The notes beneath the pieces were generated by a model, which ran no database searches, was not told where the DNA came from, and worked only from the letters and a program-made list of their open reading frames with translations. 63,001 bases of DNA from assembly GCA_947630835.1 (NCBI GenBank), contig CANRIZ010000015.1, positions 1 through 63,001 on the forward strand, written 5' to 3'. A program made the translations under genes and the position numbers. Source of the stretch: an uncultured Clostridia bacterium. GTDB lineage: Bacteria > Bacillota > Clostridia > Oscillospirales > Acutalibacteraceae. Positions 10,618 through 37,736 of this stretch are shown piece after piece (the stretch's first letter is position 1; every line of letters starts with the position of its first letter).

Positions 10618-10644
10618 TATCCCCTCTTAAAATTTTTATAAAAA

Positions 10645-10684
10645 ATTTAACGCTATGCCGCAAGAATCGGTATAGCGTTAATTT
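10645..10684. terminator. Bidirectional terminator between argS and nadE
   Basis: TTAACGCTATGCCG (10647-10660) pairs with CGGTATAGCGTTAA (10668-10681) with one G-T pair and a 7-nt loop. A/T-rich tracts flank both sides, which fits two convergent genes. Confidence 0.75.
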
Positions 10685-10708
10685 GTATATTTTATTGCCG
10701 ACCGGGGA

Positions 10709-11443
10709 TTACAAATATTTCTCGTCGGGTTCAAACACGGGCATATATTTCAGCTTAAACAAATTTGCCTTATGCTTTTTGTCGATAAGCTCTTTATGCT
10801 CCTCGTTATCTATCTCGCCGGTGCGGATATATCTGTCAAGCTCCGAGTAAGTGAAGCCGAGATTTTCCTCGTCGGTTTTTCCGCAAAGGCCGTCAATCGG
10901 CACTTTATCAACAAGCTCGTCGGGAAGCTTTAAGAGCCTGCCTATCTGCTTAACCTCGGCTACCGTGAGATTGGCGCAGGGGCTGAAATCCCCGGCGGCG
11001 TCGCCGTAACGGGTGGAATAGCCTACCCAGTCCTCGGACATATTGCAGGTGTTGGCTACCCTGCCGTTATGACTTTGCGCCACGGCATACAGGGTCGTCA
11101 TTCTGATTCGTGCGGGGATATTCGTTAAAGACTGTCGGGAAAGCTCAAAGGGCATGCTTTTCTTTAAGCCCTCCACCGCGTCCTTAATATTTACGGTATA
11201 GCTTTTAATTCCGAGGTGCTTCACCAAAAGCCGTGCCATATCTATATCGTGCTGTACTCCGCAGGGCATAAGCACGCCGATAACCCTGTCCTTCCCGAGA
11301 GCCTCGGTAAGCAGAGCCGCAACAACGGAGCTGTCCTTGCCTCCGGAAATACCGACTATGGCGTTGCAGTCCTTTCCGTTTTCCTCAAAAAAATTTCTTA
11401 TCCACTCAACGCAGTCGTTTTTAACCTTTAATGCGTCAAACAT
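10709..11443 (-). CDS. nadE: NAD(+) synthase, short ammonia-type form
   Basis: NadE amidates nicotinic acid adenine dinucleotide to NAD with ATP. The protein (244 residues) has the PP-loop SGGKDS at residues 33-38, plus NIPARIRMTTLYAVAQ and NMSEDWVGYSTRYGDAAGDFSP, which are family signatures. It lacks the N-terminal glutaminase (nitrilase) domain, so it should use free ammonia or a partner. The ATG has a GGAGG site. It lies 3' of glmS in the same orientation but behind a terminator. The upstream NAD-pathway enzyme nadD is elsewhere in this window (41298). Confidence 0.94.
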   Translation of the reverse strand: MFDALKVKNDCVEWIRNFFEENGKDCNAIVGISGGKDSSVVAALLTEALGKDRVIGVLMPCGVQHDIDMARLLVKHLGIKSYTVNIKDAVEGLKKSMPFELSRQSLTNIPARIRMTTLYAVAQSHNGRVANTCNMSEDWVGYSTRYGDAAGDFSPCANLTVAEVKQIGRLLKLPDELVDKVPIDGLCGKTDEENLGFTYSELDRYIRTGEIDNEEHKELIDKKHKANLFKLKYMPVFEPDEKYL

Positions 11444-13394: not shown

Positions 13395-13556
13395 AAAAAA
13401 TTTGCGCTTTGCGTTTGCCTTTGTTACGCCGTTGCCGGCGGTTTTAAGCAAACGCCCGTGTCCCCGCACATTCGGGACAAGAAGCATCCGCCGAAAATTC
13501 GATAAGCTTCTCCCTCGTCACCTGCCGAAAAACAGTGCAGACAGGTCAGGCGCTGA
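13395..13556 (-). ncRNA. glmS glucosamine-6-phosphate-activated ribozyme
   Basis: On the minus strand, 5' to glmS, the conserved core of the glmS self-cleaving riboswitch is present. The cleavage-site region CAGCGCCTGACC puts the cut between 13554 and 13553. Then come GGTGACGAGGGAGAAGC, TTATCGAATTTTCGGCGGAT and GCTTCTTG, which pairs back as P2.1/P2.2, and further paired elements ending at CAAAGCGC. By family knowledge, glucosamine-6-phosphate acts as cofactor for cleavage, and the 5'-OH product is degraded by RNase J. The 3' limit is approximate. Confidence 0.95.
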
Positions 13557-13624
13557 TTTTTAAGGAATCTTAAAACCTTTTGTAAATAAAAAATTTACCG
13601 AAACTGCACCCGTTTCATTTTTAT

Positions 13625-17203: not shown

Positions 17204-18031
17204 TTATTCTCCCGTCAACGCTTTGTAAATATCTCCCTTTTTAAGCTTAGTTCTCTTTGCCGTTTCCTTTGCCGCCTCGTTTACCGCCGCGCCGTTTTTA
17301 ACAAGCTCCTTTGCAAGCAAAACCGCTTCCTCGAGGCTTATTTTTTTGTCTGATTCCGACGGCGCGCCCTCGATTACCAAAACGTACTCCCCTTTAGGCG
17401 TTTCGTTTGAATATTTCTCGCACGCAAGGGAGAGGGTTGTTCTTTCCACCGTTTCGTGGATTTTGGTAAGCTCTTTTATCACGGCTATTCTCCTGTCGCC
17501 GAGACAGGCGTATAAATCGGAAAGCGTAGCCCGCAGCTTGTGCGGAGCTTCGTAGAAAACCATGGTTCTTTTTTCGTCCGTTATGCTTTCAAGATGCTCC
17601 CGCCTGCTCGGCTTATTCATACTCAAAAAGCCCTCGAACGTAAACCTGCCGCTTGGAAGCCCCGAAACGGCAACGGCGGTTGCAAAAGCCGTGGGCCCCG
17701 GTACCGCTTCGACCTTTATGCCGCTTGAAAGGCACAAATCCACCAGCTCCTCGCCCGGGTCGGAAATTGCGGGCATACCCGCGTCCGTTACTATGGCGCA
17801 GTCCTCGCCGTTTTTAATTCTTTCAAGTATAATTTCGCCCTTTTCCCGACGGTTATGTTCAAAATAGCTTATCATAGGCTTTTTTATGCCGAAATGATTT
17901 AAAAGCTTCAGCGTAACCCTTGTATCCTCGGCGGCAATAAAATCCGCCTGCGAAAGAACCTGAACGGCTCTCGGGGAAAAATCGGATAAATTACCGATAG
18001 GCGTGCCGACGACGTATAATTTTCCCGACAT
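17204..18031 (-). CDS. rsmI: 16S rRNA 2'-O-ribose C1402 methyltransferase RsmI
   Basis: RsmI methylates the ribose of C1402 in the decoding centre. The 275-residue protein has the tetrapyrrole-methylase fold motifs: LYVVGTPIGNLSDFSPRAV at the N terminus, AAEDTRVTLKLLNH, and TDAGMPAISDPGEELV. The ATG at 18031 is preferred to one 6 bp earlier (18037), because GGAGG is 7 bp from the former and only 1 bp from the latter. It follows the YabB-type gene directly, as in Bacillus (yabB, yazA, yabC). Confidence 0.93.
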   Translation of the reverse strand: MSGKLYVVGTPIGNLSDFSPRAVQVLSQADFIAAEDTRVTLKLLNHFGIKKPMISYFEHNRREKGEIILERIKNGEDCAIVTDAGMPAISDPGEELVDLCLSSGIKVEAVPGPTAFATAVAVSGLPSGRFTFEGFLSMNKPSRREHLESITDEKRTMVFYEAPHKLRATLSDLYACLGDRRIAVIKELTKIHETVERTTLSLACEKYSNETPKGEYVLVIEGAPSESDKKISLEEAVLLAKELVKNGAAVNEAAKETAKRTKLKKGDIYKALTGE

Positions 18032-18033
18032 AA

Positions 18034-18780
18034 TCATTCCTCCCTGTAGAGCCTTAAAATATCGTTCATTTCCTCCGAATAGCGGTCGTTTTCGGTGTAG
18101 ACGACAAAATTTTTCTCAACGGACAGTCCGCTTTTGCCGCCCGACTTTGCCTCTATCAGGCAAAGCCATGGCCTTTCGCCTTCCCTGCTGACTACAAGCC
18201 TGAGCCTTTTCGGCTCCAACTTATGATTTTTCATACCGAGCATTGCCTCAAACATTCTTTCGGGTCTTATACAGACGCAAAATCTTCCGCCGTATTTTAA
18301 AAGCGAAGCCGCCGCGCCGCAAACGTCCTCAAGCGTGCAAAGCGTTTCGTGACGGGCGATTTTATCGTTTTCCTTTGCGCTTTTTATCCCCGCGTTTTCC
18401 TTTTTGTAGGGAGGGTTCATACTTACTAAGTCAAACCGCCCCTGCGGAAGCTTGCCCTTTAAATCCTTTAAATCCGAGCAAACGGCAAAAACGCTTTCTT
18501 CAAGGCCGTTCATTTCAATGCTTCTTTGAAACTGCCCGAAGCCCTTTTGCTGAATTTCAACCCCGTAAACGGTTTTGCATATGCCGTCACGCTTCCACAA
18601 AAGCGGAATTATGCCGCAGCCCGTGCCCAAATCGCAGGCTGCGTCGCTTTTTTTGGCTGCGCAAAAACGGGCGAGCAGCATAGCGTCGGTGCCGAAGGTA
18701 TGCTCCCGCGATACAATAACGCCAACGCCGTTTCCGAGTATTTCGATATGTTCGTTTTCATTAAGGACAGTGTTTTTCAT
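18034..18780 (-). CDS. YabB/TrmN6-type tRNA1(Val) A37 N6-methyltransferase
   Basis: The protein (248 residues) is of the COG4123 group. SAM motif I is CDLGTGCGIIPLL (residues about 45-57), and the N6-adenine catalytic motif is NPPY within DLVSMNPPYKKENAG. E. coli TrmN6 methylates A37 of tRNA1(Val). The Bacillus neighbour YabB is of the same family, and the gene pair with rsmI is conserved, which supports the assignment. It ends at the rsmI start (TGA overlapping the alternative ATG). Confidence 0.82.
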   Translation of the reverse strand: MKNTVLNENEHIEILGNGVGVIVSREHTFGTDAMLLARFCAAKKSDAACDLGTGCGIIPLLWKRDGICKTVYGVEIQQKGFGQFQRSIEMNGLEESVFAVCSDLKDLKGKLPQGRFDLVSMNPPYKKENAGIKSAKENDKIARHETLCTLEDVCGAAASLLKYGGRFCVCIRPERMFEAMLGMKNHKLEPKRLRLVVSREGERPWLCLIEAKSGGKSGLSVEKNFVVYTENDRYSEEMNDILRLYREE

Positions 18781-18975: not shown

Positions 18976-20361
18976 ATGGCCGGCAATTTTTCATTTTATC
19001 TGGTAACGGACCCTCATTTTTTTGAGCTTTCGCTCGGCGGCGAGGGCGAGGCTTATGAAGCGAGAAGCCGAACAGACCAAAAATGCGTTGCGGAAACCGG
19101 GGCTATTATTGACGCGGGATTTCAAAAAATTGCGAAAGACAGCGAAACCAACGTAATACTTATCCCCGGCGACCTTGTTTACAGGGGAGAACAAGCAAGC
19201 AACGAGGGCTTTATCAAAAAGCTTGAATGGCTTGAAGAGAGAGGAAAAACAATCTACGTAACCACCGCCCGCCACGACTACGGCGAAACGCCCTACCCGG
19301 TCGGCTTTGTGGGAAAAGAATGTGTGCCCGTCGAGGGTACGCCGAGGGAAAAGCTGCGGGAACTTTACCGTCACTACGGCTTCGATCAGGCCATTTCCGA
19401 GCATAAGTCGATGTCCTACGTTGTTCAGCTTACCGATTCAATCCGTCTTTTGGCGTTAAACTGCGACGGCGACTGCAAGGATTTCAGGGGTATTTGGCCC
19501 GACCAGCTCGCTTGGGCGCTTGAGCAAATCAAAGACGCTCACGAAAACGGCTGTTACATATTCGCCATGACTCATTACCCGCTTTTGCCTTTTTCTCCGT
19601 TTGCAAATCTTGCGGTCGATACTCATCTTACCGACTGGGAAACGCTTGCAAACACCTTTGCCGACGCAGGGCTTGACCTGATTTTCACGGGGCACATGCA
19701 TGCTCAGGCGGTCACGGAGTTCAAAAGCAAAAAGGGCAATATGATAACCGACGTACAAACGAGCAGCTTCGTCGGCTATCCCTGCGCGTACAGGAAAGTA
19801 ACCTTCCTTGACGACAACACGATAGACATTAAATCCTATACCATTGAGGATTTTGACTGGGACAAGGGCGGAAAAACCGCGGCGGAATATTTTACTTGGC
19901 GTTTTGACAGAATGATTACCGACATAATTGACGCCATGGCTTATGATTTTGCTTTCTTCACACGCCTTTTCGGAGGCCCCGAAAAGAACAAAAAGCTTAA
20001 AATTCCCGTTACCGCGGTCGGCAAAATTTTGCAGAAAATGACCGTTAAGGGACTTGGCAGGCTTTTGTTCTTCAAGGTTGACAAAAGCATTGAAAACATA
20101 CTTGTAAAGGATTTGGCGGTCGAGTTTGTGCGAAATATTTTCCGCGGAAACGAGCCGTATGTAGACGGCACGCCCGTAAACGACGCAGTCAGGAAGCTTT
20201 TAAAAAGGCTTCGTCCCATAACAAAAATTATCGAAAAAAAGGCGGGGGATAAGAATCCCGTACTCTCCGATATTGACAAGTTCGTTCTTGACACAATCGG
20301 GGACGAAAAGCAAAGGGATTACGACGCCGTTCTTAATATCAAATGGAAAAGAGAGGCTTAA
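18976..20361 (+). CDS. Calcineurin-like metallophosphoesterase with altered metal motif
   Basis: The 461-residue protein has metallophosphoesterase motifs D12-X-H14 (VTDPHFF), GDLVYRGE (D66), THYPLLP, and GHMH (239-242). The position of the canonical GNHD is ARHD (98-101), so the Asn metal ligand is Arg and Gly is Ala. No signal peptide is present, implying a cytoplasmic location. A C-terminal part (about 305-461) is helical and not recognised. It heads an operon with a sugar symporter and a GH2 glycosidase. A role on a phosphorylated or lipid-linked sugar would fit but is inference. ATG follows a GCGAGG ribosome site. Confidence 0.8.
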   Translation: MAGNFSFYLVTDPHFFELSLGGEGEAYEARSRTDQKCVAETGAIIDAGFQKIAKDSETNVILIPGDLVYRGEQASNEGFIKKLEWLEERGKTIYVTTARHDYGETPYPVGFVGKECVPVEGTPREKLRELYRHYGFDQAISEHKSMSYVVQLTDSIRLLALNCDGDCKDFRGIWPDQLAWALEQIKDAHENGCYIFAMTHYPLLPFSPFANLAVDTHLTDWETLANTFADAGLDLIFTGHMHAQAVTEFKSKKGNMITDVQTSSFVGYPCAYRKVTFLDDNTIDIKSYTIEDFDWDKGGKTAAEYFTWRFDRMITDIIDAMAYDFAFFTRLFGGPEKNKKLKIPVTAVGKILQKMTVKGLGRLLFFKVDKSIENILVKDLAVEFVRNIFRGNEPYVDGTPVNDAVRKLLKRLRPITKIIEKKAGDKNPVLSDIDKFVLDTIGDEKQRDYDAVLNIKWKREA

Positions 20362-20366
20362 TACAA

Positions 20367-21818
20367 ATGTCAGACGCAACCGTAACGGCAAAATCACTTG
20401 CCGACAACAACAAAAAGCAGGTGGGCACAGCCGAATTTGTAATGTACCTTGTGGCGGTGTTCTTCTACACTATGATGACGGGTATGGTGGGCAATTACAG
20501 AAACAATTACCTGTCCGACGTGCTTCAAATCAACAAAGATTACATTTCGATATTCAATTCCGTACTTCCCGTTGCGGGATTTATTATCAATTTCTTCGTT
20601 TCAATGTATATCGACGGCAGAAAGCCGAAAAAGGCGGGAAAATTCCGTCCGCTTATAAACCTTATGGCCGTACCTGCGGGCATTTTCCTTATCCTTACAT
20701 TTTGGGCGCCCAAAACGCTGAACGGAACGCTTCTGCTCGCATACCTTCTTATAGTCGCAATAGGCTGGACCGTTGCCACTAACTTCTGCGGCTCGCTTAA
20801 TATGATTTCAAACTTTATGACCTCCAATCTTAAAGAGCGTGACACGGTTATTTCCTTTAGGAGCATTTCCTCGGCGGTTGGCAATTCCGCTCCGCTTGTA
20901 GTTGTGCTTGTACTCAATTTAATTTGGAAAGACAATCTTGCCACTCAGTACCTTGCGGGAGCCGCGCTTTGCAGCGTTTTCGGCACGGTAACCATGCTTT
21001 TGAGTATGAGGCTTATAAAGGAAAGAGTTGCCTGCGCACCTACAAAGAAAAATCCGCTTGAAGGCATACTTGACATACTTAAAAACAAATACGCCTGGAC
21101 CATAATAGCTTCCGATTTTATAAAGACCTTCCGAAACATAGCCACGTTTATGGGCATTTATCTTGCGGTCGCCCTTTTGGGAAGCCCGAGCAAATTTCTG
21201 CTTTTCGGTCTTCCTACGGGCATAGGTACCGCGGTGGGTATGCTTATTATCAATTTCCTGTTAAAGAAATTCAATTCAAAGGTTCTTTACATAGCAAGCG
21301 GCATTTATTCGGTAATTATAAACGTGCTTGCGTTTGCGGCGGGCTACGCTTACTTTAAAAGCCCGAACCCCGTTTTGCAGATTCTGTTCATCGTATCGCT
21401 GTTCCTTATAGGTCTTCAATTCGGCGCTTCAAACCTGCTTCCCACTATGTTCCAGGCAGACGTGCTTGAAACAATTGAGCTTAAAACCAAAAAGAGACTT
21501 GACGCCTCACTTCCGTTTGTTATCGGCATAGGCACTACCATCAGCAGCGCGATTGCGGGCGCAATAGCTCCTCAAATTCTTTTCGACGAAGGTTCGCTTA
21601 TAGGCTATATACGTCCCATGGAAGTAAGCACGGGGCTTGTTTACCTTGAACAGTCCTTCCATACAAAGGTAGCCCTTCTTTTCTTCTACACGGTGTTCCA
21701 CGGACTTATGATGTTCCTTGCGGGCGTTCCGTTCTTCTTCTACAAGCTCACAGGCAAAACAAAAGAGGATATACACAATGCGGTTATAGCGCAGCGTGAA
21801 AATATGGAGAGTAAATAA
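20367..21818 (+). CDS. GPH-type (MelB-like) sugar:cation symporter
   Basis: The 483-residue protein has about 12 hydrophobic segments and fits the glycoside-pentoside-hexuronide branch of the major facilitator superfamily (FVMYLVAVFFYTMMTGMVGN; a basic loop DGRKPKKAGKFRP; and LLFFYTVFHGLMMFLAG near the end). The start is set at 20367, because GAGAGG lies 10 bp before it and 5 bp separate it from the upstream stop. An in-frame ATG at 20343 would overlap the phosphoesterase gene. The GH2 gene follows by 2 bp, so it probably imports the glycoside that enzyme cleaves. Confidence 0.85.
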   Translation: MSDATVTAKSLADNNKKQVGTAEFVMYLVAVFFYTMMTGMVGNYRNNYLSDVLQINKDYISIFNSVLPVAGFIINFFVSMYIDGRKPKKAGKFRPLINLMAVPAGIFLILTFWAPKTLNGTLLLAYLLIVAIGWTVATNFCGSLNMISNFMTSNLKERDTVISFRSISSAVGNSAPLVVVLVLNLIWKDNLATQYLAGAALCSVFGTVTMLLSMRLIKERVACAPTKKNPLEGILDILKNKYAWTIIASDFIKTFRNIATFMGIYLAVALLGSPSKFLLFGLPTGIGTAVGMLIINFLLKKFNSKVLYIASGIYSVIINVLAFAAGYAYFKSPNPVLQILFIVSLFLIGLQFGASNLLPTMFQADVLETIELKTKKRLDASLPFVIGIGTTISSAIAGAIAPQILFDEGSLIGYIRPMEVSTGLVYLEQSFHTKVALLFFYTVFHGLMMFLAGVPFFFYKLTGKTKEDIHNAVIAQRENMESK

Positions 21819-21820
21819 TT

Positions 21821-23578
21821 ATGGTTTTCAGTTTACATCCCACGCCGCAATTTGAGAGGGAAAATTACATTTCTCTTAACGGCGAATGGGATTTCGGCTT
21901 CGCAAAATCCGTTCCCGGGATATTCAGATTTTCCCAAAATGAAGAAAGGGCGTTCGGCATATACGTAAAGGCGAATTATCCCCATAAAATCACCGTGCCC
22001 TACTGCATAGAAAGTAAGCTGTCCGGCATAGGCTACACGGGCTTCGTAAACCTTGTGTGGTACAGAAAGACCGTTTCGCTTTCGCCCGACGGCAAGCGTG
22101 CAGTTCTTCATATAGGCGCTGCGGATTATTTGACAAGCGTAATAGTAAACGGAAAATTTATAGGCAGGCACAGAGGCGGCTACACTTCGTTTTCCTTTGA
22201 CGTTACGAACGCGGTAACCGACGGCGAAAACGAGATATTCATTCTCTGCGAGGACGACTGCAAAAACCGTTTCGTACCGAGCGGAAAGCAATCCGAAAAG
22301 CTCAAAAGCTACGGTTGCAGCTATACCCGAACCACGGGCATATGGCAAAGCGTTTTCATCGAGTACACGCCGGCGCATTACATAGCCGATTTCAAGCTCT
22401 TCCCCGACGTTGAAAATTCACGGCTTGGCATAAAGCTTGAATTGGGCGGCGAAAGCACCGTAACCGAGCTTGAAGCTCAGGCGTTTTTCGACGGAAAAGC
22501 TGTAGGCAGGGCGAGTACAAAAATTACAAAGGCGGGCGAGGCGGAATTGACGCTGAAGCTCGACGAAAAGCATCTGTGGCAAGCGGGCAGGGGCGAGCTT
22601 TACGACCTTGAAATAAAATACGGCGAGGACAGAGTAAAATCCTACTTCGGGCTTCGCAGCGTTTGCATTGACGGTTATAAGTTCCTGATAAACGGTAAAA
22701 GCGTTTTTCAACGCCTTGTGTTGGACCAGGGCTTTTACAAAAACGGCATTTATACCGCCGCGGACGATGACGAAATAAAGCGGGATATTGAGCTTTCGAT
22801 GTCGCTGGGCTTTAACGGCGCAAGGCTTCATCAAAAGGTGTTTGACCCGAGATACCTGTATTTTTGCGATATTTCGGGCTATCTCGTCTGGGGAGAATAC
22901 GCAAGCTGGGGCTTTGACATTTCGTCAAAATTCGGCGTAAGATTTTTTGCAAACGAATGGCGGGAGGCTTTAAAGCGCGATTTCAACCATCCGTCGATTA
23001 TAGGCTGGTGTCCGTTTAACGAAACCTGGGATTACAAAAAACGGCCGCAGTACGACAAGCTTATAAGCTATATTTACGAACTGACCAAGCGGCTCGACCC
23101 CACCCGACCGTGCATCGACGCAAGCGGAAATTACCACGTTGCGACCGATATATACGATGTCCACGATTATAACGGCGACGTTGAATTTTTCAAAAATAAT
23201 TTTGACAAATTTTCCGACGGCGGCGAGCTTTACGAGCATGTTCTTATCGACCATCCCGGCAGGCAGAAATATCCCGGCGGGCTTCCCGTAATGGTAAGCG
23301 AATACGGCGGAATCAAATGGGAAGCGGACAGCGAATATAAAGCCTGGGGCTACGGCGAGGACGTTAAAACGCCCGAAGAATTTGCCGAAAGGTACTGCGG
23401 GCTTACAGACGCCCTTATAAACAACAAAAATATGTGCGGCTTTTGCTACACTCAGCTCTACGACGTCGAGCAGGAGCAGAACGGGCTTTTCACTTATACA
23501 AGGGAAAAGAAATTTTCGGATGAAATATACAAAAAAATCAAAGCCTCGAATACGCAGACAGCCTCAATAGAAAAATAA
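21821..23578 (+). CDS. Glycoside hydrolase family 2 (beta-galactosidase/glucuronidase-like)
   Basis: GH2 enzymes hydrolyse beta-glycosides with retention. The 585-residue protein has the N-terminal jelly-roll domain (NGEWDFGF, WYRKTVSLS), an immunoglobulin-like middle domain, and a TIM barrel (FNGARLHQKVFDPRYL). The acid/base is Glu401 in CPFNETWDY and the nucleophile Glu494 in VSEYGG. There is no signal peptide, so it acts on imported sugars. It is short for LacZ and closer in size to glucuronidase or mannosidase-type members; substrate is not determinable. It is last in its operon. Confidence 0.9.
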   Translation: MVFSLHPTPQFERENYISLNGEWDFGFAKSVPGIFRFSQNEERAFGIYVKANYPHKITVPYCIESKLSGIGYTGFVNLVWYRKTVSLSPDGKRAVLHIGAADYLTSVIVNGKFIGRHRGGYTSFSFDVTNAVTDGENEIFILCEDDCKNRFVPSGKQSEKLKSYGCSYTRTTGIWQSVFIEYTPAHYIADFKLFPDVENSRLGIKLELGGESTVTELEAQAFFDGKAVGRASTKITKAGEAELTLKLDEKHLWQAGRGELYDLEIKYGEDRVKSYFGLRSVCIDGYKFLINGKSVFQRLVLDQGFYKNGIYTAADDDEIKRDIELSMSLGFNGARLHQKVFDPRYLYFCDISGYLVWGEYASWGFDISSKFGVRFFANEWREALKRDFNHPSIIGWCPFNETWDYKKRPQYDKLISYIYELTKRLDPTRPCIDASGNYHVATDIYDVHDYNGDVEFFKNNFDKFSDGGELYEHVLIDHPGRQKYPGGLPVMVSEYGGIKWEADSEYKAWGYGEDVKTPEEFAERYCGLTDALINNKNMCGFCYTQLYDVEQEQNGLFTYTREKKFSDEIYKKIKASNTQTASIEK

Positions 23579-23753: not shown

Positions 23754-23787
23754 GAGAGGACTTCATTACAAATCCTCTCCCTTTTTT
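23754..23787. terminator. Bidirectional terminator between GH2 and nifU genes
   Basis: GAGAGGA (23754-23760) pairs with TCCTCTC (23773-23779) and is followed by CCTTTTTTT on the plus strand. The minus strand has a T/C-rich tail. It separates two convergent operons. Confidence 0.75.
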
Positions 23788-23801: not shown

Positions 23802-24236
23802 TTATTCCGCGTGATGATGCTCGTAATTACAGCAATCCTCAACAAAAAGGCTCTTGTCGTATTCTATGCCGTGCTTCTCGTAATAATCCTTAATTGCCGC
23901 CTTGATAGCCTCCTCTGCAAGCACAGAGCAATGAATTTTAACCGCCGGAAGCCCGTCAAGCGCTTCAACAACCGCCTTGTTTGTAAGCTTGAGCGCTTCG
24001 GAAATAGGCTGCCCTTTAATCATATCCGTTGCCATGGAGGAGGTCGCTATTGCGGAAGCGCAGCCGTAGGTATTGAATTTAACATCGGTAATTATATCGT
24101 TTTCAACCTTGATGTACATTTTCATAATATCGCCGCATTTTGCGTTGCCTACCTCGCCTATACCGTCGGCGTCCTCAATTTTCCCGACGTTGTGCGGAGT
24201 TGCGAAATGCTCCATTACCTTTTCCGAATATTCCAT
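23802..24236 (-). CDS. nifU: NifU/IscU-type iron-sulfur cluster scaffold
   Basis: This 144-residue protein assembles Fe-S clusters with sulfur delivered by the upstream cysteine desulfurase. The scaffold cysteines are Cys34 (NAKCGDIMK), Cys59 (YGCASAIATS) and Cys103 (IHCSVLAEEAI). Its extra C-terminal end, CCNYEHHHAE, carries two Cys and three His and is not part of the core fold. It starts at the overlap with the nifS stop, so the pair is translationally coupled. Only the IscU-like domain is present, as in clostridial NifU homologues. Confidence 0.93.
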   Translation of the reverse strand: MEYSEKVMEHFATPHNVGKIEDADGIGEVGNAKCGDIMKMYIKVENDIITDVKFNTYGCASAIATSSMATDMIKGQPISEALKLTNKAVVEALDGLPAVKIHCSVLAEEAIKAAIKDYYEKHGIEYDKSLFVEDCCNYEHHHAE

Positions 24237-31125: not shown

Positions 31126-31154
31126 TTGACAAGTAACAAAACTTCGTCTAAAAT
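31126..31154 (+). promoter_or_regulatory. Promoter of the phage-derived lysis cassette
   Basis: A perfect TTGACA (31126-31131), a 17 bp spacer and TAAAAT (31149-31154) give a strong promoter with start near 31161. It is divergent from spoIIAA, whose start is at 31016. Confidence 0.8.
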
Positions 31155-31173
31155 AATACTTGCGAGTGAACAA

Positions 31174-31215
31174 AAAACGACACCTACGAAACAGACGTTT
31201 CTTAGGTGTTGTTTT
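31174..31215 (+). promoter_or_regulatory. Long leader hairpin with U-tract between promoter and first cassette gene
   Basis: AAAACGACACCTA (31174-31186) pairs with TAGGTGTTGTTTT (31203-31215), including one G-T. After a single C-T mismatch, GAAAC/GTTTC continues to an AGAC tetraloop. In RNA this would be an intrinsic-terminator-like structure closing about 55 nt after the start and followed by AATTTAT. It could be an attenuator, or a DNA palindrome bound by the encoded regulator. Confidence 0.65.
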
Positions 31216-31241
31216 AATTTATACCGTTTTCGGAGGATAGT

Positions 31242-31658
31242 ATGAAAAAGAAAGAACCTATCGAACTGAGCCGAAGCGAATATCTGTTTTTGTCGGAAAA
31301 ATTTGAGTTTATGTCCGCTTCGGATGCAAAAGCGCTGCCCGCATATATCGTCGACGCCAAAAACGACAATTACGGGCGGATAGTAAAAATGGCGATTGAA
31401 AACGAACTCAACGAAACCGAGCAAAAATATATTTCGGACAGATTTTTCAATTTAATGAACGTCACCCAAATATCAAAAAAATACGGAGTAAGCCGACAAT
31501 CTGTTTACAGATGCCTGCAAAGAGCGGCGGACAAGCTGTTTAACTGCCTGAAATACGCCTACTGCTGCGGCTTTACGCTTATAAATCCTCCCGAAAATTT
31601 TGAAGAAATTGTTTCAAATATCAAAAGGAGGAACATATTTTGCGAGAAATACTTATAG
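31242..31658 (+). CDS. Sigma-70 region 4-like HTH regulator
   Basis: The 138-residue protein has an HTH in its centre (residues about 64-98: LMNVTQISKKYGVSRQSVYR, then CLQRAADKLFNCLKYAY) like sigma-70 region 4 or phage late regulators. The N-terminal 60 residues are charged and contain no region 2. Without region 2 it is unlikely to be a complete sigma factor. GGAGGA precedes the ATG by 6 bp. It is first in a five-gene plus-strand cassette and overlaps the fibre gene by 19 bp. It is the obvious candidate to control the cassette, perhaps through the hairpin upstream. Confidence 0.7.
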   Translation: MKKKEPIELSRSEYLFLSEKFEFMSASDAKALPAYIVDAKNDNYGRIVKMAIENELNETEQKYISDRFFNLMNVTQISKKYGVSRQSVYRCLQRAADKLFNCLKYAYCCGFTLINPPENFEEIVSNIKRRNIFCEKYL

Positions 31659-32878
31659 ATGTTGATTCTGCTTCGATTTATGACGAGGAAAGGGCTTTTG
31701 ACGCCGGACTTATGTTCGAGCACAACGCCGCGAAGCTGAAGTTTAAGCTCTCGTCCGACCTTATAAACAGCTCCTATAAATACTACCTTGAATTTGCAAC
31801 GGCGTCCGGCCCCGCAAGAACGGATTATTTGACGCCGGATTCGGGCGGAGTCGTTTCGTATCTCCTTCCCGCCGCCATAACGGGGCAGATGAGCGTTCTG
31901 TGTTATTTTAACGTTATAAAAACAGACCCCGACACACTTGATACAACCCTTGTAATAAAGCCCGCCGCCGTAAGGCTTAATTTTACGTCGGTGGAGAGCG
32001 ATTCAAAAGAGCTTGCCGAAAGCTATGATTTTTCGGTTAACGCGCTTTTGGAAGCGATTAAAAACGGTACTTTTAAGGGCGACAAGGGCGACAAAGGCGA
32101 CAAAGGCTTGCAGGGGGTAAAAGGCGACAAGGGCGAACCGGGAAAGGACGCCGTTATCGACAACACGCTCAGCCAAATGAGCCAAAATGCCGTACAGAAC
32201 AGGTTGATAACAAACGCGCTTAATTCAAAGGTCGACAAGGTCGACGGAAAGGAACTTTCCGAAAACGACTTTACCGACGAGCTGAAAGCGAAGCTTGAAT
32301 CAATAGAGGAAAACGCCGACAATACACAGGTTGACGGGGAGCTTTCGGATTTGAGCGAAAACCCGGTACAAAACAAGGTCATATATAACAAATTTGACGA
32401 GGTTAACACGTCGATTACGGAGCTTCAAGACAGTAAAGCGAATAAAACAGGTACGGTTCTTGGGCTTAACGCAAGCGCAAAAGTAGCGGTTTCCATTGCC
32501 ATAGGCAGGGACAGCTCCGCCGCAAACGTAAGCACTGCCTTGGGATTTTCGGCAGCTACACAGGGACAGAATTCCTTAGCTTTAGGTGACCACGCAAAAG
32601 CGATGCAGGTGGGAGCTATTCAGTTGGGCGGCGGTCTAAACGAAACGGCTTATTCTTTTCAGGTACGCAGCTATTTGCTCTTAGACCGCTACGGAATTAT
32701 TCCGAACGAGAGGCTCGACATAGCCGACAAAGCAGAAGAGGGCAACGCAACGCCCATTTCGTCGGACGCCGTTTATAAAGCCCTTGAAAAGGTCAGAGCC
32801 CTTGCCGAGGGACTGTCAACGGCGACAACTCTCGAACAGGTGCGTTCTGCCGCGCAAAGCTTTTTGGAAAGCGAGTAA
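31640..32878 (+). CDS. Phage tail-fibre-like protein: BppU-like, collagen and YadA-head-like parts
   Basis: The 412-residue protein begins with a beta-rich domain like the phage baseplate upper protein BppU N terminus (about 1-130). A collagen-like Gly-X-Y tract follows (about 147-171: GDKGDKGDKG, GEPGKDA). Predicted helices and repeated (N/D)xVQN motifs (NAVQNRL, NPVQNKV) come next. YadA-head-like repeats (VSIAIGRDSSA, TALGFSAAT, SLALGDHAKA) sit at about 280-330, and the end is helical. Start is TTG, with AAGGAGG 8 bp before it. Such fibres trimerise and bind surfaces. No signal peptide is present, which fits release by lysis. Confidence 0.75.
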   Translation: MREILIDVDSASIYDEERAFDAGLMFEHNAAKLKFKLSSDLINSSYKYYLEFATASGPARTDYLTPDSGGVVSYLLPAAITGQMSVLCYFNVIKTDPDTLDTTLVIKPAAVRLNFTSVESDSKELAESYDFSVNALLEAIKNGTFKGDKGDKGDKGLQGVKGDKGEPGKDAVIDNTLSQMSQNAVQNRLITNALNSKVDKVDGKELSENDFTDELKAKLESIEENADNTQVDGELSDLSENPVQNKVIYNKFDEVNTSITELQDSKANKTGTVLGLNASAKVAVSIAIGRDSSAANVSTALGFSAATQGQNSLALGDHAKAMQVGAIQLGGGLNETAYSFQVRSYLLLDRYGIIPNERLDIADKAEEGNATPISSDAVYKALEKVRALAEGLSTATTLEQVRSAAQSFLESE

Positions 32879-32951
32879 TAAAACGGCGGTAAAATTAATT
32901 TGTAAATTATATAAACAAATCGCAATATAATGAATTGACAGGTGATATACA

Positions 32952-33176
32952 GTGAACAGCGAATCCATTATCGCTTTGTTATCCTTTTTGGGAACTCTTG
33001 TAGGCACGTCGGGAGGCATACTTGCAAGCGCAAAGCTTACAAATTACAGGCTTGAATTGCTTGAAAAAAAGGTTGACCGACACAACAGCTTTGCCGAACG
33101 GGTACCCGTTATAGAGGAAAAGGTGAAAAATCAAGAGGCAAGAATAGATAATTTAGAAAGGAATGAGGTAATATGA
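32952..33176 (+). CDS. XhlA-like phage membrane-associated small protein
   Basis: The 74-residue protein has one N-terminal hydrophobic segment (IIALLSFLGTLVGTSGGILA) and a coiled-coil tail (LELLEKKVDRHNSFAER, VIEEKVKNQEARIDNLER). This is the layout of small phage proteins encoded just before endolysins (XhlA/holin-accessory type). Start is GTG, with AGGTGAT upstream. It overlaps the lysozyme start by 4 bp. Family assignment is by architecture and context. Confidence 0.65.
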   Translation: MNSESIIALLSFLGTLVGTSGGILASAKLTNYRLELLEKKVDRHNSFAERVPVIEEKVKNQEARIDNLERNEVI

Positions 33177-34066
33177 AAGGGATTGACGTGTCCAAATATA
33201 ACGGCTCGATTAACTGGAGCGAGGTTAAAAAAAGCGGCATAGATTTTGCCATACTCCGCGCGGGCTACGGTCAATACGAAAATCAGAAGGACGAAACCTT
33301 TGAAAATAATTACGCCGCCGCCAAAAAAGCGGGCGTTAAGCTCGGCGCATATATTTATTCCTATGCAAAGTCCGCCGAGGACGCAAAAAAGGAGGCCGCG
33401 GTTTTTCTTAAATGGCTGAAGGGCAAGCAGTTTGAGATGCCGGTTTATTACGACGTTGAGGAAAACAGCCAGGCGAAAAAGGGAAAAGCCTTTGTTTCAC
33501 TGCTCATTAAAAACTTTTGCTCGGTAATGGAAAATGCGGGCTATTTTGTAGGCGTGTACGCAAATAAAAACTGGTTTGAAAATTACATCGACGACGAATG
33601 TAAAAAGCGCTACGCCTCATGGGTTGCTCAATGGGCAAAGAAAAACACATATAACGGCGCATACGGCTTATGGCAGTATTCGGCAAGCGGCAAGGTAAAC
33701 GGAATAAGCACAAGCGTCGACCTTGATACATCGTATAAAGATTATCCCTCCATAATAGTAAGCGGCGGCTTTAACGGCTTTAAGGGCGGCGAAGCTCCAA
33801 AGCCCGTAACCCCTGCTCCAAAGCCGACAACGCCTAAGCCGTCATATAAGGCGGGCGCAAAAATCAGGCTTGACAACGCGCCTATATACGCCTCCTCCAC
33901 AACAAACAGACAAGCGGGAAAAAAGACGGGTATATTTTATATTTACGACGGCATAGAAATCCGTTCCCGCTATCGCATAACGACAAAGCCCGAATATGTA
34001 AACGCAAAGCCCATAGACGAAAAGGTGACGGGCTACGTCAGAAAATCCGATATAAAGCAGGTGTAA
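33173..34066 (+). CDS. GH25 lysozyme, phage endolysin type
   Basis: GH25 muramidases cleave MurNAc-GlcNAc bonds in peptidoglycan. The 297-residue protein has the catalytic domain at residues 1-200, with Asp5 in MKGIDVSKYNG and the DXE motif Asp94/Glu96 in YYDVEEN, and the LWQYSASGKVNGI end motif. A Pro/Lys/Thr linker (about 204-222) leads to a C-terminal SH3-like wall-binding domain (about 225-297). There is no signal peptide, so it needs the holin encoded 2 bp downstream. It is preceded by a GAGGT ribosome site inside the small gene before it. Confidence 0.93.
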   Translation: MKGIDVSKYNGSINWSEVKKSGIDFAILRAGYGQYENQKDETFENNYAAAKKAGVKLGAYIYSYAKSAEDAKKEAAVFLKWLKGKQFEMPVYYDVEENSQAKKGKAFVSLLIKNFCSVMENAGYFVGVYANKNWFENYIDDECKKRYASWVAQWAKKNTYNGAYGLWQYSASGKVNGISTSVDLDTSYKDYPSIIVSGGFNGFKGGEAPKPVTPAPKPTTPKPSYKAGAKIRLDNAPIYASSTTNRQAGKKTGIFYIYDGIEIRSRYRITTKPEYVNAKPIDEKVTGYVRKSDIKQV

Positions 34067-34068
34067 TA

Positions 34069-34347
34069 ATGGAAAACGTAATAGAATATCTTGTAAGCAA
34101 CGCGCTTATCTTAATTCCGGCGCTTAACATTATCGGAATGATTATAAAGCGCACGGATAAAATTCCCGACAAGTACATTCCCCTGATAATTTTGGTTTTC
34201 GGAATAGCGGGTTGTTTTGCGCTTTTGGGATTCAGCGCAGACTCCGTTATACAGGGAGTGCTTGTATCGGGAGCGGCGGTTTACGGCAATCAGATAAAAA
34301 AACAATTAGTTCAAAAGGACGAAGAAGAACCGGAAACGGAGCAATAA
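34069..34347 (+). CDS. Phage holin
   Basis: The 92-residue protein has two or three short hydrophobic segments (YLVSNALILIPALNIIGMII, then IPLIILVFGIAGCFALLGF and VIQGVLVSGAAVYG) and an acidic, charged C terminus (QKDEEEPETEQ). This is the form of the Phage_holin_5_2-like family that follows GH25 endolysins in clostridial phages. It would permeabilise the membrane to let the lysozyme reach the wall. It is last in the cassette and followed by a strong terminator. Confidence 0.85.
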   Translation: MENVIEYLVSNALILIPALNIIGMIIKRTDKIPDKYIPLIILVFGIAGCFALLGFSADSVIQGVLVSGAAVYGNQIKKQLVQKDEEEPETEQ

Positions 34348-34370
34348 CTCCATTTTCGGCGGCAAAAAGC

Positions 34371-34420
34371 GGCGGCGCAAAGAGCGTATCTCTCTGCGCC
34401 GCCGTAATTTTTTTATTTTT
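34371..34420 (+). terminator. Strong intrinsic terminator closing the lysis cassette
   Basis: GGCGGCGCA (34371-34379) pairs perfectly with TGCGCCGCC (34395-34403), with AGAG/CTCT pairing inside. GTAATTTTTTTATTTTT follows. It isolates the cassette from the convergent dockerin gene. Confidence 0.88.
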
Positions 34421-34443: not shown

Positions 34444-36393
34444 TTATATGTTGTAAACAACTATTCCAACGGTTTGGTCATTGTGAACGCAAACGGTTAC
34501 CGCAATTTTTGCCGCAGTATTTACATAATAATCGTATCTTTCCACTGCGTTTTGCCTTGTTTCGTCAAATACAAATCCGTTGTTCAAAATTAATTCGACA
34601 TACCTTCCCAACGGTCCGTTTTTATTAATATCGGAAGCGTTGTATACAAATTCAACATAGCCGTTTTCGTCAAACTCCGGAATTTCCGTTTCGTTTATAT
34701 CGTAAAATACGGTTTTCGTGGGCGAAATGCCGAGCAACACTCCCAAGTCGGGCACGCTTTCATAATATTTATAGCTGTTTACCTTTACGCTTTCGGTTTC
34801 GGTCGTCAATAAATATGAGCCCGCGATATTTTGCAAAATCCGTTTTGCGTCGACAACGGAAAGCTTTTTGTCGCCGTTTACGTCAGCCGTTTTTACTGCG
34901 TATTCTCCGAGGGACGCGGAACCCGAAATCGCCTGCAATACCGCTTTTGCGTCAACAACGGATATTTTTCCGTCGATGTTGACGTCGCCGAAGCGTATAA
35001 GCTCGTTGAGGGTTAATTCAACGGCGCTGTAATCCGAAACGGTAAACGTCAACGCCGTTTCGTTTGATAAAATTCCCGATTTTGAAACGGCTCTGAAGCT
35101 TAAATTATATTCCATAGGCTTATTAAAGCTCAGACTGTTTCCTTCTAAATCCTGCCACTCGCCGCCGTTAAATTTATATTGGTATTTTAAAATATTGGCG
35201 TCGTCGTCCGAAGAAAGAGTAATGTTTACCCTGCCCTTGGCTTTATCGCCGTTTTTAATTTCAACGCCGCCGGAGCTTGCGCTTACGTTAAGCACGGGAA
35301 CGGGCAATGGCTTTGCGTTATCGGGGTCGTACGCATTTTTGCTAAGCTCCGGATAGCCGACTATTATATTCACTTTCTCGCCCTGCTCGTTAGGTATATA
35401 AAATCTGTTCCCGTCCGTGACATGGGTTACCGAAAAAGCGTCAAGATAAGAGTCTGCGGTATCGCTGCCGACAAGGAAATACTCGTTTTTATTAGGGTTA
35501 TCGTCCATCCAGGTAGTATCCACGGCGTACCATTTGCCGTCCTCCATTTGGACGTAATTCCACGCATGGCCGCCGCCCGAAAGCACGCCGGGAACATTGT
35601 ACGTATATCCCAAGCCCACAACGATAAGCGAGGGAATATTGTTTGCGTCGCAAATCATTTTAAAAGCCTTTGAATAACCGTCGCAAACAACTCTGTGCGG
35701 TTCAAGCAGGCAGTAGGACGGATAAAAATATTGATCGTCCTCATCCGTGGCTTCATAGGCATAGTCCGTCATTTCGCAAATTCCGTCCGCTATGCTCCTG
35801 ACCTGCTCGTATCTCGTTTTGCCGCTTACCGTAAAGCTTTCTGCCGCGTTTAAGGTATCGTTATACTCCTTTTTTAATTTTTCAAAGCTTCCCGTATGAG
35901 AAGCGCCGTCGACAAAATCGAATATAAGCCAAAGATTTTCGTCATTCGCTCTTTGTTCCGCTCTGACGTCGTAAGGAAAATCAAGCAGCCAATAGAATTG
36001 AGGCGTATCGTCAACAATCGCCGCCAACGCCGTATACAGAGCCATCCGCATTTTGAACGCGTCAAGGTCAAAATCCTCGCCGTTGGTGATTTCAACGGAA
36101 AAATCACCGTCCTTGGTGTTAACGCCGCTTTGCTGGTTTACAATGCCGTTGTAAATTATTTTTTCGGTTTGCGTAAGCCCGTCGTAAAATCTGTACGGAG
36201 AACCGTTTGTAAACTTATCTTTTACGCTCGAAAAATTTTTGTTGATTTCCTTTATGAGCATTCCCGCGTTATGCCCGTCGCCCGCCCTGCTTACGACAAG
36301 GCTCTTGGGCTGCGCCGCAAAAGCGCCCGCGGGCAAAGCGGAAATAATCATAACCGCCGCAACAAATATACTGAACAGTTTACGTTTTTTCAT
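34444..36393 (-). CDS. Secreted transglutaminase-like protein with dockerin domain
   Basis: The 649-residue protein has a signal peptide (KKRKLFSIFVAAVMIISALP, then AGAFAA). The transglutaminase-like domain has the triad Cys237 (RVVCDGYSKAF), His276 (GGHAWNYV) and Asp292 (AVDTTWMDD). A beta-rich domain follows (about 375-455). A type I dockerin-like module at about 464-530 has two calcium loops (GDVNIDGKISVVDAKAVLQ; ADVNGDKKLSVVDAKRILQ). A further domain of about 110 residues follows the dockerin. ATG at 36393 has AGGAG 8 bp upstream. It is in the operon of the hydrolase upstream. The dockerin suggests anchoring to a cohesin scaffold, but no cohesin gene is seen here. Confidence 0.85.
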   Translation of the reverse strand: MKKRKLFSIFVAAVMIISALPAGAFAAQPKSLVVSRAGDGHNAGMLIKEINKNFSSVKDKFTNGSPYRFYDGLTQTEKIIYNGIVNQQSGVNTKDGDFSVEITNGEDFDLDAFKMRMALYTALAAIVDDTPQFYWLLDFPYDVRAEQRANDENLWLIFDFVDGASHTGSFEKLKKEYNDTLNAAESFTVSGKTRYEQVRSIADGICEMTDYAYEATDEDDQYFYPSYCLLEPHRVVCDGYSKAFKMICDANNIPSLIVVGLGYTYNVPGVLSGGGHAWNYVQMEDGKWYAVDTTWMDDNPNKNEYFLVGSDTADSYLDAFSVTHVTDGNRFYIPNEQGEKVNIIVGYPELSKNAYDPDNAKPLPVPVLNVSASSGGVEIKNGDKAKGRVNITLSSDDDANILKYQYKFNGGEWQDLEGNSLSFNKPMEYNLSFRAVSKSGILSNETALTFTVSDYSAVELTLNELIRFGDVNIDGKISVVDAKAVLQAISGSASLGEYAVKTADVNGDKKLSVVDAKRILQNIAGSYLLTTETESVKVNSYKYYESVPDLGVLLGISPTKTVFYDINETEIPEFDENGYVEFVYNASDINKNGPLGRYVELILNNGFVFDETRQNAVERYDYYVNTAAKIAVTVCVHNDQTVGIVVYNI

Positions 36394-36419
36394 ACTGTGC
36401 GCTCCTTGCAAGGTATTTG

Positions 36420-37736
36420 TCAATTTGTATTTTGCTCAAAGAATTCAAGCATTTCGTCTATAGTCCTTTTGCTTTCCTCAAGCTCGGGATAGGCTACGCT
36501 TGTAATATGCCCGGAGGATTTATTAAAAGTCAAGCCCCAGTCCCTGAAAGTATGCTTAACGCCGTTTTCGTTTAACGCCTCGTTGAACATAACCGACGAA
36601 GCGTGGAGAAAATCCCTTGAACAGGTAACCACATAACAGGGGGGAAGCTTGCCAAGAGGAAGCGCCTCCTGCGGCTGTAAGTAATTATAGCACTCGGCGT
36701 TTTTGTAGTCAAAGCCCAAATATGAGGAAATAAGGGGAGAATTTACCCCGTTTTTCATATCGTACATACCGGAAACCAAACCGAGAGCGTCTATTGAAAG
36801 TCCCGACGGTTCAACGCCGTAAATCTGCCGTAATTTTTCGCTTGAATCGACAAGAGGGACGTAATAAGCAAGGTTGCCGCCGGCGGAATCCCCGGTTACA
36901 TAGACCTTATCAAGATTTATATTATACTTTCGGGCATTGTCGTGTATCCACTTAAACGCCGCCGAAACGTCCTGCACCTGCGAGGGATAAAGCACGTCGG
37001 GGCAAAGCCTGTAATTAAGCGTAACCACGGTGTACCCTCTTTTTGCAAGCACGGAAGCGTAAACCCTGTTTGAGTCCTTATCGCCCATCATAAGCCCGCC
37101 GCCGTGAATATCTATGATTACCGGAAGCGGAGATTTTGTGTTTTCGGGATAAAAGACGTCAAGCATATGCTCGTTCGTGCCGTCGTCAATATACGGTATA
37201 TCCTCAAGCCTTGTAACGCCCTTTTCCATACTTTGAGAATTTACCCTGTTTTCGTCGAAAACCGTTACCATATCCCAAATTATAGAAATAGCCGCCGTAA
37301 CGAAGCCCTTGTTTGTAAGCTCGCCCATAGCCTTGGAGTCCATTTCGTTGAGCTTGGTATCGAGTTGAAAAAGCCCGTTGAATATCTCGGCAAATCTTTT
37401 TTCATTGCCGGCAGAGTCGTCAACGTCCGTCCCGTTTACAATCAGACCTTTGAGAAATATATAAAAATCGGTAAAAACGCTTTTAACGCTCTTGATAAAT
37501 TCCTTATCGTCGGAAAGATCGGTTGAATTTATGAGCTTATCGAGCGTTTCTCTCTTTGAATAAAACTCTTTTTCGATTTCGCCGTAGCTGCCGTATTTAA
37601 TCTCGGTATGCGAACCGCTTTCGACGGCTCTGGCAAAATCCGACCTTTTTGCAAAAACATTTGTCTGGCGGCATATGCCGAAGGTAAATGCGGCGACAAG
37701 CAGCATGCCGACAATTCTGTTTAAGCTCCTTTTCAT
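36420..37736 (-). CDS. Exported alpha/beta hydrolase, HSL-type esterase
   Basis: The protein (438 residues) begins with a hydrophobic segment (NRIVGMLLVAAFTFGIC) that may be a signal peptide or anchor. The C-terminal half has HGGGLMMGDKDSNR (oxyanion hole HGGG), the nucleophile in VTGDSAGGNLAYY, and a likely catalytic His in SSGHITSVAYPE, which together indicate a hormone-sensitive-lipase-type carboxylesterase. The N-terminal 170 residues are a helical extension not part of the core fold. Its ATG overlaps the stop of the small gene upstream. Confidence 0.85.
   Translation of the reverse strand: MKRSLNRIVGMLLVAAFTFGICRQTNVFAKRSDFARAVESGSHTEIKYGSYGEIEKEFYSKRETLDKLINSTDLSDDKEFIKSVKSVFTDFYIFLKGLIVNGTDVDDSAGNEKRFAEIFNGLFQLDTKLNEMDSKAMGELTNKGFVTAAISIIWDMVTVFDENRVNSQSMEKGVTRLEDIPYIDDGTNEHMLDVFYPENTKSPLPVIIDIHGGGLMMGDKDSNRVYASVLAKRGYTVVTLNYRLCPDVLYPSQVQDVSAAFKWIHDNARKYNINLDKVYVTGDSAGGNLAYYVPLVDSSEKLRQIYGVEPSGLSIDALGLVSGMYDMKNGVNSPLISSYLGFDYKNAECYNYLQPQEALPLGKLPPCYVVTCSRDFLHASSVMFNEALNENGVKHTFRDWGLTFNKSSGHITSVAYPELEESKRTIDEMLEFFEQNTN

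Follow-up and report, generated by a model that had tools for sequence, protein, structure and literature searches.

What is a compact set of phage-type regulator, fibre and lysis genes doing in a bacterial chromosome? The question is raised by the window analysed here, a stretch of 63,001 nucleotides (positions 1–63,001 of contig CANRIZ010000015.1, assembly GCA_947630835.1) from an uncultured Clostridia bacterium of the family Acutalibacteraceae, whose own genome we label G000. It carries a cassette of five genes, encoding a helix–turn–helix (HTH) regulator, a fibre-like protein, an XhlA-like protein, a GH25 endolysin and a holin, which the original prediction took for a stand-alone domesticated unit. 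We found a conserved head and packaging operon elsewhere in the same genome, and we think it probable that the two loci belong to one split particle system of phage origin, inherited vertically and resembling a gene transfer agent (GTA), to which the cassette contributes the activator, the fibre and the lysis functions. The case is built from sequence: the two loci, their conservation, the selection on the genes compared, the cassette promoter, LexA boxes, terminators and the co-occurrence of the genes.

The head genes form an operon of about 6 kb on another contig of G000 (C11, 17.7–23.8 kb). It runs from the small terminase subunit TerS (17711–18205; PF03592) through the large subunit TerL (ending at 19467; PF03237, E = 3.6e-13), the portal (19424–20644; phrog_30703, 1e-119), a protease-like open reading frame (ORF; 20547–21605; phrog_16951, function unknown) and the capsid (21630–22637; PF25209, 1.5e-15; phrog_3922, 6e-103) to three small genes ending at 23779 that have no PHROGs or Pfam match. 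TerS, portal and capsid were confirmed with PHROGs and Pfam on the G000 copies, and TerL was scanned on the copy of a relative, G022. A gene that reads as glgB begins at 23987, just beyond the operon. Genes read as those of the host flank the operon in G000 and G022 (contig C11 in both), and in G000 no tail or replication gene was read between the flanks, no dedicated integrase search having been made. The terminase and capsid searches matched C11 only, so that the reported absence of capsid, portal and terminase holds for the window, as far as searched, and fails for the genome. Since this separate operon is conserved, and since a published Faecalibacterium system is similarly split into two operons, the cassette is not stand-alone.

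Head and packaging genes kept throughout a lineage are a GTA trait, and this is the pattern observed in the genus, for which our sample comprises 38 same-genus genomes plus G000, 39 in all; genus counts leave out three loci, two from other genera (L069 and L070) and one whose regulator match is SigF (L071, from G004). TerS, TerL, portal, protease-like gene and capsid are present in all 18 genus genomes fetched, G000 included, a set chosen for a prior terminase match; the capsid of G034 is cut by a contig end. Terminase_3 gave a match in 33 of 36 genus genomes examined, again with G000 included; in a few of them an additional, stronger match looks like a prophage. The capsid profile A1 matches 36 of the 39 genomes, once in 33 of them and twice in G025, and a contig end truncates the gene in both G034 and G035; the three without a match are G015 (81% complete), G030 (96%) and G036 (68%). 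Outside the genus, TerL, the portal and a portion of the protease-like gene lie at the end of L069. Between G000 and G001, the ratio of nonsynonymous to synonymous substitution rates (dN/dS) is 0.03–0.14 for six of the eight head genes, including TerS, portal and capsid (TerL and the protease-like gene were not compared).

The cassette itself lies on the plus strand, and its five frames are open and intact, with the orientation, positions, overlaps and gaps originally described. The regulator (31242–31658; 138 residues) has an HTH of the sigma-70 region-4 or phage late-activator type (Sigma70_r4, PF04545; 5.7e-6, 26.2 bits against a cut-off of 24.1) and a weak similarity to antitermination protein Q (0.034; 0.0012 for its relative in locus L115). 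The fibre gene (31640–32878; 412 residues, TTG start) overlaps it by 19 bp and is followed, after 73 bp, by the gene for the XhlA-like protein (32952–33176; 74 residues), a small membrane coiled-coil protein matching phrog_1863 (function unknown; 3e-14). The GH25 endolysin gene (33173–34066; 297 residues; PF01183, 3.9e-32; phrog_291, 8e-52) overlaps the latter by 4 bp, and the Hol44-family holin gene (34069–34347; 92 residues; PF16079, 3e-20) starts after a 2-bp gap. A genome search found a single GH25 gene in G000, that of the cassette. The GH25, holin and regulator HTH assignments are thus above their cut-offs, whereas XhlA (0.014) and, in the fibre, the collagen (0.0046) and YadA head (0.021) similarities fall below theirs. 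Inspection by eye revealed no signal peptide on the fibre or the lysozyme. Downstream of the holin, a hairpin of −25.8 kcal/mol (34370–34404, taken on the plus strand) is followed by TAATTTTTTTATTTTT; the hairpin is strong, but the terminator scan flagged this palindrome on the minus strand only, and a plus-strand terminator is our reading of the T-run.

Is this cassette as widespread as the head operon? The regulator, searched in 98 relatives, has one match in each of the 38 same-genus genomes, but that of G004 falls in sigF, so 38 of the 39 genomes, G000 included, carry the cassette. The refuting outcome, a unit that occurs only inside prophages or broken, was not what the relatives displayed. 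In a broader search, the regulator profile A2 gave additional weaker matches in G000, G033 and G035. Lysis genes, a further GTA trait, are constant: hidden Markov model searches of the loci found GH25 in 38/38 cassettes (split over two frames in G005) and Hol44 in 36/38, the other two having a different holin (Phage_holin_1, PF04531, in G029) or an ORF similar to it (G034). An XhlA-like protein is likewise present in all 38, as a second form in 29 and as the form of the window in nine. A small coiled-coil gene, c163, occurs in 16/38 cassettes; its profile was the only search applied to loci L072–L078. Cassette and capsid are found together in 35 of the 39 genomes.

The fibre has a conserved N-terminal domain of about 140 residues, a collagen-like stretch and a variable C-terminal domain. 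The N-domain profile (A3) has a mean column identity of 57% among relatives, and the predicted structure of the domain reaches a predicted local distance difference test (pLDDT) score of 86; its fold may be BppU-like, and a PDB-sequence profile search with the fibre returned nothing convincing. The C-terminus, YadA-head-like in the window though below the cut-off, is replaced elsewhere by a GDSL/SGNH hydrolase (G029 and G016) or an NAGPA phosphodiester glycosidase (G012). A conserved N-domain joined to a variable C-terminus is the usual design of receptor-binding proteins, and the common N-domain with its varying enzymatic or adhesin ends suggests that the fibre is built like a receptor-binding protein borne by a particle. 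Its sole match in the phage collection is MT835647, itself a record that reads as a piece of chromosome. The N-domain is present in 28/38 cassettes, and release of the fibre by itself, one of the purposes first proposed, is therefore unlikely to be the core function.

The promoter region gives an indication of how the cassette might be switched on. The consensus promoter first noticed, of the sigma-70 type (TTGACA-N17-TAAAAT, 31126–31154, plus strand), agrees with the consensus at 11 of 12 bases. The pattern TTGAC-N15-19-TANNAT precedes the regulator in 37/38 loci, and the promoter of G002 was recognized by eye. Moreover, 31 of the 38 cassette loci have a perfect LexA box, GAAC-N4-GTTC, compared with 0/190 shuffles; in 29 of them the distance to the first base of the −35 hexamer is 41–43 bases, the other two being that of G002 and one inside the promoter spacer of G028. 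At the usual position, where 30 of the 38 have a perfect box (in the window 31168–31179, plus strand), the window retains the left half-site GAAC only. The seven loci without a perfect box (G000, G001, G022, G023, G029, G034 and G036) share a promoter type, and we treat them as one clade. Genome-wide counts of CGAACNNNNGTTCG were uninformative, being below those of a reversed-pattern control in 7/7 genomes (6 versus 14 in G000), and next to the CGAACAAATGTTCG site of G000, on contig C34, no gene was recognized as belonging to the SOS response. Within the clade, G022 has one box 5′ of a dinB-like gene, an argument for loss of the box from the cassette in the lineage of the window; G029 has no such site in its genome, and LexA itself may be altered in this clade. 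Other boxes precede genes that read as recA-like and dinB-like. A perfect SOS box also stands directly 5′ of a c163-like gene (3e-8) in G033 (G033:C2:1394583; L325, 1501–1770), whose cassette has no c163. Control by sporulation stage finds no support here; in most species the operator is that of LexA.

Between promoter and regulator, the leader of the window contains a hairpin with a T-tail resembling an intrinsic terminator (31175–31214, plus strand), a candidate site of attenuation or antitermination that the original prediction does not mention; the leader has a z-score of −4.1 relative to shuffles. Such a structure, at −9 kcal/mol or below, occurs in 38/38 leaders versus 30/228 shuffles, and at −15 kcal/mol in 23/38 versus 1/228. 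These figures were obtained with the finer of two length grids; the coarser one gave 24/38 versus 7/190.

We may wonder whether regulator and head genes keep company beyond the genus. Capsid profile A1 matches 71 of 394 genomes of the order, once each except in G363 (two matches) and G035 (two fragments). Profile A2, run on a draw of 394 order genomes with the same labels, matches at E ≤ 1e-8 in 57 of the 71 capsid-positive and 6 of the 323 capsid-negative ones (Fisher 4e-48, a value overstated because the genomes are not independent; the cut-off was picked after viewing the list, and 1e-8, 1e-9 and 1e-10 were all computed). Outside the genus the counts are 50/64 versus 6/323 and, within the family outside the genus, 22/28 versus 0/8. 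Cassette and head protein distances are also correlated (Mantel r of 0.43–0.68, n of 16–31, with 0/2000 permutations as high). Of 20 regulator-like loci taken from other genera, five show a perfect SOS box in the 600 bases upstream, where 0.009 would be expected per locus. A c163 profile match precedes the regulator in two of the 20, and similar small ORFs were read in several more; in G440 an N-terminally extended GH25 gene (1e-28) directly follows the regulator. Taken with gene content and precedent, this co-occurrence points to a link between the head operon and the cassette. A candidate for direct contact is a motif near CTATNNNTGAAAGG located 5′ of TerS, found with at most one mismatch in 8/18 source regions and 9/69 further ones, compared with 4/1740 shuffles; the regulator may bind there.

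These elements suggest the following sequence of events. The second locus, on C11, would make the head and pack DNA. A signal would open the cassette promoter, DNA damage acting via LexA in most species and some other input in the clade of the window, while the leader terminator would hold leakage low. The HTH regulator would then act on its own operon and on that of the head, by activation or antitermination; heads would fill with DNA and receive the fibre, and the holin and GH25 lysozyme would finally lyse the cell and set the particles free. We infer here the joint action of the two loci, control of the head operon by the regulator, the formation of particles, and their carriage and delivery of host DNA.

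Several observations weigh against this scheme. G030, although 96% complete, has a cassette with neither a capsid nor a Terminase_3 match. The head operon lacks a LexA box in 18/18 loci and no DNA motif is common to the two promoters; in addition, no perfect LexA box exists anywhere in the window. Plain species descent also yields correlated distances. Within a few kilobases of the regulator, 19 of the 20 loci from other genera have no GH25, holin, XhlA-like or fibre profile match, and in the genus itself the fibre is missing from 10/38 cassettes. Finally, apart from apparent prophages in G012 and G035, searches of the genus for sheath, baseplate J, Dit and hub genes found none, which makes the route of DNA injection puzzling.

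The alternative that best survives is an autonomous programmed-lysis module, through which damaged cells would release public enzymes, DNA or the fibre, unconnected to the head operon. Its constant core would be the regulator, GH25, XhlA-like protein and holin, with a dispensable fibre, and both the LexA control and the G030 cassette without a detected head agree with it. It accounts poorly for the presence of head and cassette together in nearly all genomes of the genus, for the order-wide association of regulator and capsid and for a fibre of particle-borne design, and we regard it as unlikely.

Somewhat less probable still is a particle that carries no DNA, either a killing or protein-delivery device of the PBSX or tailocin kind or an empty capsid. 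The distribution of tail genes bears on this. Scanning named genomes with A1 gave at least 568 confirmed capsid stretches, 80 of which were kept (nine of these have no called capsid gene and were omitted from the neighbour ranks). A baseplate-J-type gene lies 3′ of the head genes in 29 of the 80 loci kept, and in 17 of the 45 among them that have at least 6.5 kb behind the capsid. In L187, Baseplate_J is matched at 1.7e-54, with LysM, Mu gp45 and gp48 below the Pfam cut-off. In the IMG/VR entry L394 (IMGVR_UViG_2511231134_000003), head genes of the same type have behind them genes for a sheath and for tube-like and baseplate-like proteins, with no tape-measure gene noticed; L394 is a fuller version of the element. 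Sheath or baseplate genes thus do stand beside the same head genes in other genera, and the authors of the Faecalibacterium work do not exclude a PBSX-like role, DNA delivery being, by their account, unproven (PMC12946183). In the genus studied here, on the other hand, sheath (PF04984) and baseplate J (PF04865) genes occur in 2/39 genomes each, confined in both cases to G012 and G035, apparent prophage carriers, and in G000 neither is present; Dit was found in 1/39, one of these two carriers, and the hub in 0/39, the last of the tail searches having no positive control. The genus therefore appears to keep head, fibre and lysis genes without a recognized tail gene. As terminase, portal and capsid are retained in the absence of contractile parts, and TerS, portal and capsid have low dN/dS in the pair compared, DNA packaging fits better than killing.

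The last rival, the remnant of a decaying prophage, can be set against selection on the cassette and its conservation. Thirteen species pairs were compared over the stretches matched by the profiles (for the fibre, the N-domain only), and dN/dS is 0.02–0.26 in all but two gene comparisons: one of the holin, at 1.9 with a dS of 0.02, hence almost no change, and one of c163 with saturated dS. Gene clustering distinguishes at least six cassette neighbourhoods in the genus. Pfam on representatives identifies among them a sigma/HATPase/STAS set (spoIIA by reading), ClpC with ATP:guanido phosphotransferase, IF-2 and a U32 peptidase, and the flank in G022 reads as glg genes. The spoIIA flank is common to G000 and G001 only, so the boundary whose conservation was to be checked is not conserved. 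No phage structural gene was noticed in the flanks by clustering and by Pfam on representatives, not every flank having been searched, and pattern-based scans of IMG/VR found no confirmed relatives of the regulator or the fibre N-domain. These data support the proposal that the cassette is domesticated and under purifying selection. A prophage remnant, suggested by the phage-type genes themselves, is very improbable and was rejected on conservation and selection, given a presence that is not patchy, a conserved promoter architecture and genes intact apart from the two-frame GH25 of G005.

How does the proposed GTA-like system compare with known ones? PBSX of Bacillus subtilis is a domesticated particle of phage origin that packages DNA of its host and has XhlA among its lysis genes, but its genes, a full tail included, lie in a single contiguous locus, whereas here the loci are split and no tail gene is recognized. 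In RcGTA of Rhodobacter, dispersed head/tail, fibre, spike and lysis genes obey one activator; host phylum, regulators and gene content differ. The closest precedent, as far as descriptions can be compared, is FpGTA of Faecalibacterium, published in 2026 and called by its authors the first GTA of the human gut microbiome (PMC12946183). Its operon I encodes TerS, TerL, portal, scaffold and capsid, and its operon II a fibre, a receptor-binding protein, a holin and an endolysin together with baseplate genes; capsids of about 40 nm hold about 9 kb of DNA, with no identifiable tail and no replication genes (PMC12946183). Both systems belong to Gram-positive gut anaerobes and separate the head operon from that of fibre, holin and endolysin, a likeness drawn between the published description and the genes seen here. 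They differ in the baseplate genes of operon II, since baseplate J and hub were not found in our genus outside apparent prophages, and in the opening of the operon: here a promoter, in most species with a LexA box, and a leader terminator stand 5′ of a regulator gene that comes first, whereas the FpGTA text consulted mentions no regulator. That text likewise contains nothing on the genus of the window, a LexA box or a leader terminator (PMC12946183). The LexA box, the leader terminator and the lack of a recognized tail gene appear to be new, within a literature search that left out preprints and most subscription papers. For the regulator, CcGTA of Caulobacter offers a precedent: in that IHF-dependent system, the two activators GafY and GafZ drive the GTA cluster and accessory promoters elsewhere, with antitermination past a terminator near the cluster start (PMC11150451). 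Activation and antitermination of dispersed GTA genes are thus documented there, in an unrelated host; our regulator is sigma-region-4-like, and an antitermination role for it is a guess.

A bolder extension, which we consider possible rather than probable, is that an ancient, order-wide GTA lineage exists in gut Clostridia and that here the tail was shed and activator, fibre and lysis genes were fused into an SOS-switched suicide operon, leaving a tailless, fibre-decorated DNA capsid. A core of head genes and a small HTH activator would then be expected in many genera, with release upon DNA damage. GTAs are known from few lineages; the capsid gene seen across the order, the co-occurring activator and, in this genus, the conserved lysis operon would make capsid-borne gene exchange a lasting feature of many bacteria of gut and rumen that have not been cultured.

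Viral databases would be affected too, as the A1 scan of IMG/VR gave 341 confirmed capsid stretches. Two GenBank records entitled 'UNVERIFIED: Bacteriophage sp.' read as pieces of chromosome: L111 (MT835508.1), with a ribosomal-protein gene cluster and the head cluster, and L115 (MT835647.1), with a regulator–fibre–GH25 cassette beside sugar-transferase-like genes (the GH25 of L115 is named by Pfam, the other genes of both by reading). A faecal-virome origin of the MT835 records found no backing, as their accessions did not turn up in the text of a Mexican study of virus-like particles. Some of the IMG/VR stretches lie in real phages. The phage contig L335 (IMGVR_UViG_3300032038_000365) has its own terminase, portal and PF05065 capsid and, upstream at 10001–10981, an extra capsid gene of the GTA type, whose product is 76% identical to that of G000 and nine residues shorter. 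Similarly, a phage-like region at the end of contig C15 of G035 (L332; YqaJ, RecT, a weakly c163-like gene and SSB) closes with the first 59 capsid codons, and this fragment is 96.6% identical in DNA over 205 bases to the chromosomal copy. Phages that subvert or poison GTA capsids may explain both cases.

Two further features of the window should be mentioned. Adjoining the cassette, positions 34444–36423 encode a Transglutaminase-core protein with a dockerin type I domain, and a glmS ribozyme (93.4 bits) is located at 13401–13565 on the minus strand.

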